From Flavobacteriales bacterium (GTDB lineage: Bacteria > Bacteroidota > Bacteroidia > Flavobacteriales_C > GCA-002722245), in NCBI GenBank assembly GCA_023251075.1, contig JAHEZM010000020.1, forward strand, positions 1 through 58,230: DNA of 58,230 bases. The letters run 5' to 3'. How positions within the stretch are numbered: position 1 is the stretch's first letter; each line of letters opens with the position of its first letter. Positions 53,726 through 57,158 of this stretch are shown in pieces. The notes beneath the pieces are model-generated. The model ran no database searches. It was not told the origin of the DNA and saw only the letters and a list, made by a program, of their open reading frames with translations. The translations under genes were made by a program, and so were the position numbers.

Positions 53726-53744
53726 CACTGACAAAACACTGACA
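53726..53744 (-). promoter_or_regulatory. 11-bp-period direct repeat upstream of the cellulase gene (site 1)
   Basis: On the minus strand TGTCAGTG, TTT, TGTCAGTG. Two exact 8-base repeats lie one helical turn apart, 90 bases before the start of the GH5 gene. A close relative lies at 56123-56141 before the next T9SS gene. The pattern resembles operators of OmpR/PhoB-type regulators. Regulatory role is inferred. Confidence 0.5.
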
Positions 53745-53834
53745 TTCAATATTTATAAGGATTACAGAAGGAAGATAGCCTTATCTTAGAAAAGCTTATT
53801 TACCTCAAACTATAAACAATAAACACTTAGTTTC

Positions 53835-56060
53835 ATGAAAAAAAACTTTTACACTTTATTACTTGGCGCATTGCTATCTCTAACCTTGAGCGCACAAAAT
53901 CCAGCACAAATGTATGGCGTTAATTTAGCTGGTGCCGAATTTGGCAGCAACTTTCCGGGTACTTCCGGTACCGATTATTTTTGGCCTACCAATAGCGATT
54001 TCGACTATTTTTCTGGTAAAGGACTAAAACTGATCAGACTTCCTTTTAAATGGGAGAGAATTCAACCTACCATGAATGCAGCCTTAAATACTGCCGAATT
54101 GAACCGACTTATTGCAGCAATAGATTATGCCCAAACCAAAGGGATGTACGTAGTGGTTGATATGCACAATTACGGCAGAAGAAATATCAACTGGACGGAT
54201 TATGTGATCGGTTCAAACACCGTGCCTGTGGCCAATGTAAAAGATTGCTGGACGAGATTGGCCACTGCATTAAAAAACAAAAGCAATATTTACGGGTACG
54301 GCATCATGAATGAACCACACGATATGTTGCAATCAGCTCCGTGGTCAACAATAGCCCAAGAAATTATTAATGGAATAAGATCAAGCGATTTAACTACCAA
54401 TATTATTGTAGGTGGAGATAGCTGGAGTTCTGGTTTAAATTGGCTTACCTACAGCAATAATCTTAAAAATTTAATAGACGTTTCAAACAAACTCATCTTT
54501 GAAGCACACGTTTATTTTGATGGTGATGCTTCAGGATATTATGATCAATCCTACGATGGAGAAGGTGCTTATGCTAACGTGGGGGTTGATAGAGTAACTC
54601 CTTTTGTGAATTGGCTTGAAGCCAATAATTTGAAAGGATACGTTGGAGAATATGGTATTCCGGCTAATGATTCGAGATGGAATACTGTTTTATCAAACTT
54701 CCTAACTTACATTCAAGCCCATTGCGTTAATGGAACGGCCTGGGCAGCTGGTGGATGGTGGGGAAATTATGCACTTTCATTACAACCTGCCAATAGTGTA
54801 GATAAACCACAAATGGCAACTTTAACTAATTTCTTAACTATACCCACCAACAATTGTTCGTTTATTTGTTCAGGGCCTCAGCCCAATTTAGGTAATGATC
54901 AAACGGTTTGTAATCAGTCGGTAACATTGAATTCGGGAGTAAATGCTGCTCAGGGCATTACCTTTCAGTGGTACAAAGACAATATATTAATCAATGGTGC
55001 AGGCAACAGCACTTACAGTGCATCGGGTGCAGGAACGTATAAAGTAACGGTTACACAAAACAGTTGCGCAAAATCAGATCAGATTAATATCAACGTTAGC
55101 TCAGGATTAACCGTGCAGGGCGATACAGTGTGCAACCCAGGTGATATGGCTCACCTAAATGTTTTAACTGCAGGTGGCCCCTACAACTGGTATGCAGCAT
55201 CAACAGGAGGAAACTCATTATATACAGGATCAACTTACGATGTTACCATCAATAACAATACTAATTTTTATGTAGAAGGAAACGGGGGAGTTCGCCAATC
55301 CATTGGACCAAAAACTACAATAAACAACCCAGCTACATCAATTGATGGCTGGTACATTAATTATAATTTAGCAAGTGCCGATTCTCTGCGATTAGATTTA
55401 GATGTTAATACTACTATCGATTCTATTGATGTTTATTGCGATTACGCAGCAAGCGATCAAACACTAAAATTTACTGTGTTTAATAGCAGCGGTGCCCAGG
55501 TAGGACAAAAAATTTACACTGTAGTTGCAGGTTCTCAGTACATGATTCGCGTACCTATAGGTATTTCATTAACTGCAGGAAACAACTACAAATTAACCTT
55601 GGCAGGAACCACCATCAAATTATGGTTCGATGGTCAGGATGCACCTTATCCTTATGTGGTTTCAGGACTAGGCACAGTAAAATGGGCCTTGGCTCCATGG
55701 GGTGCCGATGGATATGAAGTGCCAAGTATTTACAATATTATTTTGAATACTACCACCAACAATAGCTGCGGAAGAACTATGGTTCAAGCTACCATCGACG
55801 TTTGTACCGACGCCATTGAAGTGGAGAAAAATAAGTTGACAATTTATCCTAATCCAAGTAATCAAAACTTCAATCTTCAATTAGAAAACATAGATAATAT
55901 TTCACAAATCATTCTATTTGATATTTCGGGAAAAGAACTTATGAGGCTACCTATCTCTTCAAATAACTTATCATTTGGTGAAGAATTAAAAGAAGGAGTT
56001 TACATCCTTAAAATAATTTCAGGAAATAAAGAAGAATACAAACAAATCATTAAACTTTGA
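53835..56060 (+). CDS. T9SS-exported GH5 family cellulase/glucanase
   Basis: A signal peptide (MKKNFYTLLLGALLSLTLSA) is followed by a GH5 domain over about residues 25-335. The acid/base Glu lies in GYGIMNEPHD, the nucleophile Glu in GYVGEYGIP, and LKLIRLPFKWERI and FEAHVYFD fit the family. Ig-like regions follow (NLGNDQTVCNQSVTLNSG, GTYKVTVTQNSCA), then a beta-sandwich, and a T9SS tail (KLTIYPNPSNQNFNLQLE). It would cut beta-1,4-glucan outside the cell. It precedes another T9SS protein by 165 bases. Confidence 0.92.
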   Translation: MKKNFYTLLLGALLSLTLSAQNPAQMYGVNLAGAEFGSNFPGTSGTDYFWPTNSDFDYFSGKGLKLIRLPFKWERIQPTMNAALNTAELNRLIAAIDYAQTKGMYVVVDMHNYGRRNINWTDYVIGSNTVPVANVKDCWTRLATALKNKSNIYGYGIMNEPHDMLQSAPWSTIAQEIINGIRSSDLTTNIIVGGDSWSSGLNWLTYSNNLKNLIDVSNKLIFEAHVYFDGDASGYYDQSYDGEGAYANVGVDRVTPFVNWLEANNLKGYVGEYGIPANDSRWNTVLSNFLTYIQAHCVNGTAWAAGGWWGNYALSLQPANSVDKPQMATLTNFLTIPTNNCSFICSGPQPNLGNDQTVCNQSVTLNSGVNAAQGITFQWYKDNILINGAGNSTYSASGAGTYKVTVTQNSCAKSDQININVSSGLTVQGDTVCNPGDMAHLNVLTAGGPYNWYAASTGGNSLYTGSTYDVTINNNTNFYVEGNGGVRQSIGPKTTINNPATSIDGWYINYNLASADSLRLDLDVNTTIDSIDVYCDYAASDQTLKFTVFNSSGAQVGQKIYTVVAGSQYMIRVPIGISLTAGNNYKLTLAGTTIKLWFDGQDAPYPYVVSGLGTVKWALAPWGADGYEVPSIYNIILNTTTNNSCGRTMVQATIDVCTDAIEVEKNKLTIYPNPSNQNFNLQLENIDNISQIILFDISGKELMRLPISSNNLSFGEELKEGVYILKIISGNKEEYKQIIKL

Positions 56061-56082
56061 CCTAGTACAAATCATTGTTTAC

Positions 56083-56116
56083 CAATCCCCGAAAATCCTT
56101 TCGGGGATTGTTTTTT
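56083..56116 (+). terminator. Terminator after the cellulase gene
   Basis: CAATCCCCGAAA and TTTCGGGGATTG form a perfect 12-bp stem with loop ATCC, followed by six T. Confidence 0.88.
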
Positions 56117-56122
56117 ATAGCG

Positions 56123-56141
56123 CGTCAGTATTTCGTCAGTA
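56123..56141 (+). promoter_or_regulatory. 11-bp-period direct repeat upstream of the carbohydrate-binding-like gene (site 2)
   Basis: CGTCAGTA, TTT, CGTCAGTA. Two exact 8-base repeats at an 11-base period, 84 bases before the start codon. It differs from site 1 only at the first and last bases of each repeat, all transitions. Because a terminator lies just before it, this gene needs its own promoter, which makes a control site here plausible. Confidence 0.5.
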
Positions 56142-56225
56142 GGTATAGGCGGTGCTTTGTCGGTATCAAAAATTAGCTTCCTCCTTGTGCTCCAAATAAC
56201 TTTACCTCATCTAAATTTTATGATT

Positions 56226-57158
56226 ATGAAAAAACTTTTTACTCCTTTATTTACACTTGCGACACTCGCACTTCAATCACAAACACCCGGTTACACGGCA
56301 ACTTCAATTTATGATGATTTTGCACAAACATTAAACTATGCTGATCCTAATCCATCAGATCCAAACAATCCTGATGGAGCTTACTGGTGGGGAAAAGCAG
56401 CTACAGGAACCAACCCAAACAATGTGAACGATCCAAAAAATACAGATGCCTGTTATTTAGCGAACAAATATTCTTTATCAAGAACAGGAAATGGAAAATT
56501 AACTTTGAGTGTATCACAAGGAAGCGAATGTTGGGAGCCCTTTGGTATTTCAACAAAATTAGACTTAAGCAACAATTCAACATTTGAGGTTTCGATTACC
56601 AATACGTCAAATACAGCAATCTATTTCGACATATCTTTGGTAGATGAAAACAAAAAGGTAATCAATGCGAATGCCAATGGAGTGAACTACAGCGTAGCCT
56701 CAATCGCACCACAGGAAACCAAAATTTTTACTGGAAATTTTGCAGGTGGACAACATAAAACATGGCCTGGCCCACAATTATCAGGTGGATTAGATTTCTC
56801 AAAAGTTGTTGAAGTGGACATGACAGTAGTAAATGCCAGTCAGCCGGAAAACAACAACTGGGGTCCACTAGCGATTAGCGATTTATCAGTGCAAATTAAT
56901 TCTTTCAAAATTGGTGCTTCTGCAGGATCATCAATTTCTGAGACATTCAATAATGCAACTTTCTCTATTTATCCAAATCCATCGAGTTCAGGTGTTATTA
57001 CTTTCTCCAAAAACCTGAGCAATGTTAAAATGTACAATCAATTGGGTGAATTGATGCAAACGGCAACGAATGCATCAAAATTAGAGGTGAACACTTATGC
57101 TGCGGGTGTTTATTTCATTCACTCAGAGCAGGGCATCAGCAAAGTTATTTTACAGTAG
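56226..57158 (+). CDS. T9SS-exported protein, possibly carbohydrate-binding
   Basis: ATG at 56226 gives 310 residues with a signal peptide (MKKLFTPLFTLATLALQSQ). The central part (about residues 25-225) is a beta-rich domain with KLTLSVSQGSECWEPFGIS and VVEVDMTVVNASQPENNNWG, like galactose-binding or CBM-type sandwiches. The C-terminus is a T9SS tail (FSIYPNPSSSGVITFS). No catalytic residues are evident. It lies behind the GH5 gene with a similar upstream repeat, so it may bind the same plant polymer. The longer frame from 56157 is rejected as it overlaps the regulatory region. Confidence 0.72.
   Translation: MKKLFTPLFTLATLALQSQTPGYTATSIYDDFAQTLNYADPNPSDPNNPDGAYWWGKAATGTNPNNVNDPKNTDACYLANKYSLSRTGNGKLTLSVSQGSECWEPFGISTKLDLSNNSTFEVSITNTSNTAIYFDISLVDENKKVINANANGVNYSVASIAPQETKIFTGNFAGGQHKTWPGPQLSGGLDFSKVVEVDMTVVNASQPENNNWGPLAISDLSVQINSFKIGASAGSSISETFNNATFSIYPNPSSSGVITFSKNLSNVKMYNQLGELMQTATNASKLEVNTYAAGVYFIHSEQGISKVILQ

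Follow-up and report, generated by a model that had tools for sequence, protein, structure and literature searches.

The window examined here, a stretch of 58,230 nt, contains a gene for a secreted GH5 endoglucanase followed by a gene for a 312-aa T9SS-secreted protein, each preceded by a 19-nt direct repeat of the same build, and the question raised by this locus is whether the repeats are operators and, if so, which genes they control and which regulator reads them. Direct reading of the DNA found both repeats at the coordinates and with the sequences given in an earlier, sequence-only reading, and upheld its count of 15 identical positions out of 19, with transitions at all four differences. 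Read in the direction of the GH5 gene, operator 1 is CACTGACAAAACACTGACA. Its distance from the GH5 start codon also stood as given, while the 84 bp given for operator 2 holds for an alternative in-frame ATG at 56226, the distance being 78 bp from the ATG at 56220. The terminator claimed between the two genes is present as a hairpin with a T-run, so that each gene probably has a promoter of its own. The nearest solved structures to the window GH5 are endoglucanases (E 1e-73). Orthologues of the 312-aa protein are present in three other genomes of the genus (G002, G003 and G004), and in the three orthologous promoters TGTC(G/A) occurs 23 bp past the second half-site, compared with 24 bp for the possible third half-site in the window.

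Table 1. Window features, putative operator sites with the genes downstream of them, and related loci
Feature	Genome	Position	Strand	Basis or remark
Direct-repeat operator 1 (putative), TGTCAGTG TTT TGTCAGTG	G000, window	53726..53744	-	90 bp upstream of GH5 ATG at 53835
Direct-repeat operator 2 (putative), CGTCAGTA TTT CGTCAGTA	G000, window	56123..56141	+	Direct reading; 78 bp before ATG of 312-aa T9SS protein gene
GH5 endoglucanase, secreted, Ig-like domains and T9SS sorting tail	G000, window	53835..56060	+	Pfam PF00150 3e-41, PF18962 1e-8
Terminator-like hairpin and T-run between GH5 and 312-aa gene	G000, window	about 56084..56116	+	Sequence reading
Possible third half-site TGTCGG	G000, window	56158..56163	+	24 bp past second half-site of operator 2
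312-aa T9SS-secreted protein, no catalytic family assigned	G000, window	56220..57158	+	Pfam PF18962 1.9e-7 as sole match
922-aa candidate regulator gene	G000	C45:33181-35949 (L109:9182-11950)	-	Recurring transcription-factor gene adjoining sites
Site, 922-aa membrane regulator (candidate)	G000			98 bp upstream
Site, second GH5	G000			138 bp upstream
Site, 1720-aa T9SS surface protein	G000			75 bp upstream
Site, gluP/fucP-like sugar permease (MFS, glucose-type)	G000			80 bp upstream
Site, GH3 beta-glucosidase	G000			147 bp upstream; overlaps 3' end of preceding reading frame
Sites, GH5; giant T9SS protein; regulator; phosphoglucose isomerase (PGI); small carboxypeptidase-regulatory-like protein	G001			
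Site, GH3 and divergent weakly PhoD-like gene	G001			One site common to both genes
Sites, GH5; two giant T9SS proteins; GEVED-domain T9SS protein	G002			
Element CTGACAATAACTYGTCA, GH5b promoter	G000	L111 (C28:46296-46312)		
Element CTGACAATAACTYGTCA, GH5b and GEVED gene promoters	G002	L149 (C38:98563-98579); L138 (C2:93430-93446)		
55% regulator paralogue	G000	L140:3954-6761 (C42)		
Giant T9SS locus		L112:4866-10028	-	
Giant T9SS loci		L139:1870-6369; L138:11432-15925; L148:2725-7812; L217 near 1142		
GH9 cellulase gene near regulator genes	G004	L137:14347-15999 (C2)		Pfam-confirmed
GH9 cellulase gene near regulator genes	G002	L138:17699 (C2)		By eye

Motif searches covered this genome (G000, 3.28 Mb) and four others of the same genus (G001 to G004), and the control throughout was the reversed pattern searched in the same genome. 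One of these assemblies (G001, CAMBXP01; L012, contig C26) is labelled Chryseobacterium gleum; its genes match this genus and the label is probably wrong. The pattern YGTCAGTR-N3-YGTCAGTR matched exactly twice in G000, both times in the window, with no match for the control, and a search with the core GTCAGT-N5-GTCAGT at up to one mismatch yielded five further sites outside the window. The consensus derived from the window sites and these core-search sites, TGTCAGTNYTWTGTCAGTR (TGTCAGTnyTwTGTCAGTr), consists of two TGTCAGT half-sites with an 11-bp period. At up to two mismatches it gave 7, 7 and 4 matches in G000, G001 and G002, against 0, 0 and 1 for the control; G003 and G004 had no match at this threshold and one control match each, and looser patterns in G002 to G004 likewise had controls above zero. 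A looser pattern with K/N positions was abandoned, the two-mismatch matches it added being mostly noise on a par with the control. Each site was then scored with a matrix whose training set left out the target family of that site, and compared with a simulated 3.3-Mb genome, in which 16 of the 18 sites had no chance equal; operator 2 of the window had one per simulated genome, placing it among the weakest sites of the set, and the G003 site had five. Applied to 21 genomes, the site model placed all of its top 18 matches within this genus, a result that is partly circular. Two matches that had not been used for training lie upstream of a giant T9SS protein in G004, homologous to a known target, and upstream of a small carboxypeptidase-regulatory-like protein in G002, homologous to a G001 target. 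A search for a Bacteroidota -7 box (TAnnTTTG) at constant spacing from the sites found none.

The sites lie 34-147 bp from start codons, and the genes downstream of them, judged by their annotated families, would describe a path from cellulose through cellobiose and glucose to fructose-6-phosphate, together with surface proteins. The PGI site was seen in one genome only (G001), and the permease site was examined in G000 alone. A G001 site upstream of a uracil-DNA glycosylase gene (TGGCAGTTTTATGTCAGTC) was set aside as probably due to chance. That the two window sites face opposite ways relative to their genes had been regarded as a weak point; since most sites share the GH5 orientation, this objection falls away, the exceptions being the 312-aa gene of the window, the permease, PGI and the small G001 protein. 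The giant T9SS proteins (about 1500-1720 aa) have in common an N-terminal domain of ~400 aa without a Pfam match, and a later region resembles the grappling hook protein GhpA (9flp, E 8e-28); as members of the regulon they may act on or bind cellulose. GH9 cellulase genes also lie near the regulator genes of G002 and G004 and have no strong site of their own.

Conservation was traced through the GH5 genes of the window type, of which G000 has two and G001 and G002 one each, and a site is present upstream of all four. Genes of this type are absent from G003 and G004, which also lack a good consensus site, and among 78 GH5 loci of other genera no motif was found at up to two mismatches, two congeners excepted. 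Between G000 and G001 the GH5a promoters share 25 consecutive identical bases over the site within diverged surroundings, the regulator promoters share 21 identical bases over theirs, and four giant-protein promoters have CTGACAAAA...TGACAT in common. Degenerate counterparts of operator 2 (GGGAGTGTTTTGTCCGTA, GGGAGTGTTTTGTCCATTA and GGGAGTGAAATGTCAGTAT) occupy the same place upstream of the G002, G003 and G004 orthologues. The flanks of the sites are mutually unrelated, which argues against a mobile repeat. Three promoters contain a second conserved element, CTGACAATAACTYGTCA, at about 43 bp from the direct repeat. Its sequence would also fit two copies of the half-site in inverted order (TGACA-N6-YGTCA), and its presence suggests cooperative binding. 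The idea of a regulatory motif in the sequence-only reading was thus borne out by matches that are few, above the control and functionally grouped, and by sites kept upstream of orthologues; a general T9SS or glycoside-hydrolase signal was ruled out by the mere ~7 sites per genome.

The 922-aa candidate regulator has a site in its own promoter in both G000 and G001, and in G001 a further site lies upstream of the giant T9SS gene adjoining it. Two site-bearing T9SS genes of G002 are located among two copies of the regulator gene, and in G003 the interval separating the regulator from a giant gene contains a variant site, so that regulator and sites are linked in four of the five genomes. G004 has two regulator copies and sites that are only degenerate, the linked regulator genes themselves being without one. 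Close orthologues (67-80% identical over the C-terminal 283 aa) were found in this genus only, among 295 genomes of the class. At least five paralogues are encoded in G000, one of them 55% identical; the next relatives are at about 40% identity. The 55% paralogue has an MFS-like transporter gene on its upstream side and a secreted-protein gene on its downstream side; no TGTCAGT repeat was found at its locus, and it may have a separate motif of its own.

The regulator begins with a signal-like N-terminus, has a single hydrophobic helix at about residues 717-740 and ends in a predicted HTH domain. Its periplasmic part would be of propeller type: the G001 orthologue weakly matches Reg_prop (20.4 bits, cut-off 20.4) and Y_Y_Y (18.7 bits, cut-off 26.6), the former being the one sensor or HTH match to reach its curated cut-off, and no Pfam match to a histidine kinase, receiver or AraC HTH was found in the protein. 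GerE matched in seven of nine regulator members, the best E of 0.0043 being under the curated cut-off. AlphaFold2 modelling of the last 106 aa (21 sequences) reached a pLDDT of 85, and that of a longer, 190-aa C-terminal part (9 sequences) a pLDDT of 56, too low to be relied on. The C-terminal model has seven helices, including those at 51-61, 66-73, 77-90 and 99-105, and no strand. All 50 chains listed by VIA-align were of the LuxR/NarL type, the best with Z 7.6 and rmsd 2.2 over 66 residues, where the program's own guidance takes Z <8 as moderate; the top rows from Foldseek were mostly of the same family, and the structures matched include VpsT, VraR, EL222, ComA, DosR, LiaR and NarL. As modelled, the C-terminal domain is a four-helix HTH of the LuxR/NarL (GerE) type, a reading based, despite the moderate Z, on the one family found throughout the listed rows and its agreement with the GerE hint from Pfam.

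Taken together, these findings suggest, with a probability of roughly three in four, that the 19-nt repeats serve as operators in a scattered regulon for the utilisation of cellulose (beta-1,4-glucan) and that the 922-aa protein is its most likely regulator, the assignment being based on linkage. From the computed support, namely the sites, their rarity, functional grouping and conservation, the regulator linkage and the predicted fold, we infer binding of the regulator to the sites, its ligand, activation rather than repression, and the geometry of the dimer. Basal cellulase would free cello-oligosaccharides, which would then be the ligands of a periplasmic propeller/Y_Y_Y-like sensor, joined by the single membrane helix and a probable cytoplasmic coiled coil to the LuxR/NarL HTH. 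On binding ligand, the regulator dimer would rearrange through the membrane, and its paired LuxR-type C-terminal domains would settle on the direct repeat upstream of the promoters, each in one of two adjacent major grooves; with a spacing of one helical turn (11 bp), the head-to-tail half-sites would be expected to hold two DNA-binding domains side by side on the same face of the DNA. In this position the regulator would activate the GH5 and GH3 enzymes, surface T9SS proteins, glucose-type permease and phosphoglucose isomerase, and the site at its own gene suggests feedback.

The same regulon might instead be controlled by an OmpR/PhoB-type response regulator bound to tandem TGTCA-N6-TGTCA in the manner of the E. 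coli Pho box, where TGTCA is directly repeated every 11 bp. The core of most sites matches the Pho box layout, and a gene pair for an OmpR-type regulator and a histidine kinase lies about 6-7 kb from the regulator gene on contig C45. However, no pst/pho transport genes are among the targets of the best sites, the transcription-factor gene met repeatedly around the sites of the other genomes is the one for the propeller-LuxR protein, and the DNA-binding domain of that linked regulator, to which alone this point applies, is all-helical rather than winged. This alternative is considered unlikely, and the OmpR/PhoB-type regulator named in the sequence-only reading was probably the wrong one.

A slightly less probable alternative is that the regulon is real and the propeller-LuxR protein a mere target in it, the sites being bound by an unlinked factor such as an AraC-type protein, a paralogue from the propeller family or an ECF system. 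A site at the regulator gene would be expected of a target no less than of an autoregulator, and the paralogues in G000 offer other candidates; against this, several genomes have the regulator next to site-bearing genes, and the genomes with close regulator orthologues coincide with those that have sites. That the two short repeats are alike by chance, or have no regulatory role, would agree with the chance-level occurrence of three-mismatch versions of the motif within the window, but is made very improbable by the zero control matches, the functional grouping, the promoter footprints and the unrelated flanks.

The preferred reading, a small cellulose-use regulon with the propeller-LuxR protein as candidate regulator, of another type than first proposed, appears to be undescribed: literature searches of open-licence papers found no description of the motif or regulon, nor any DNA motif assigned to propeller sensors that carry a LuxR-type HTH. 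Since little is known of how scattered T9SS cellulase genes are controlled in non-PUL Bacteroidota cellulose degraders, the gain is a defined putative operator together with a list of its targets and a named candidate for the regulator, and membership in the regulon provides hints to the function of the giant T9SS proteins and of the uncharacterised 312-aa secreted protein of the window. With somewhat less assurance than for the regulon itself, the system is judged likely to be a new operator-regulator type, in which a membrane-tethered, one-protein sensor combining a propeller with a LuxR-type HTH would act without a phosphorelay on 11-bp repeats and control an unlinked, genome-wide cellulose regulon with secreted T9SS cellulases at one end and glucose uptake and phosphoglucose isomerase at the other.

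Among known systems, the E. coli Pho box and PhoB are alike in their repeats and differ in the target set and in the winged-helix domain. The LuxR/NarL proteins VpsT, VraR, LiaR, NarL and DosR share the modelled C-terminal four-helix HTH fold; these proteins act in the cytoplasm as response regulators or autoinducer receptors, whereas here the domain would be tethered to a membrane propeller sensor. Cellulose genes of another member of the Bacteroidota, Cytophaga hutchinsonii, are under ECF-sigma control (cited in PMC10766802), a mechanism of the sigma/anti-sigma kind and not a one-protein sensor on an operator. SusR-like regulators resemble the build proposed for the present candidate, each being one membrane protein that has a periplasmic sensor and a C-terminal HTH and activates glycan use from direct-repeat operators, but the distance between their predicted direct repeats is 67 or 77 bp (PMC3878776) and the period here is 11 bp. 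The HTCS of Bacteroides are membrane-spanning glycan sensors that likewise have direct-repeat operators upstream of glycan genes; their periplasmic domains are of the Reg_prop/Y_Y_Y type, which the sensor here matches weakly, and they combine a histidine kinase, a receiver and an AraC-type HTH, with operator repeats averaging 21 bp between sites (PMC3878776), whereas the regulator described here has no kinase or receiver match, a predicted LuxR-type HTH and an 11-bp period, and its putative targets are scattered over the genome rather than gathered in a susCD locus.
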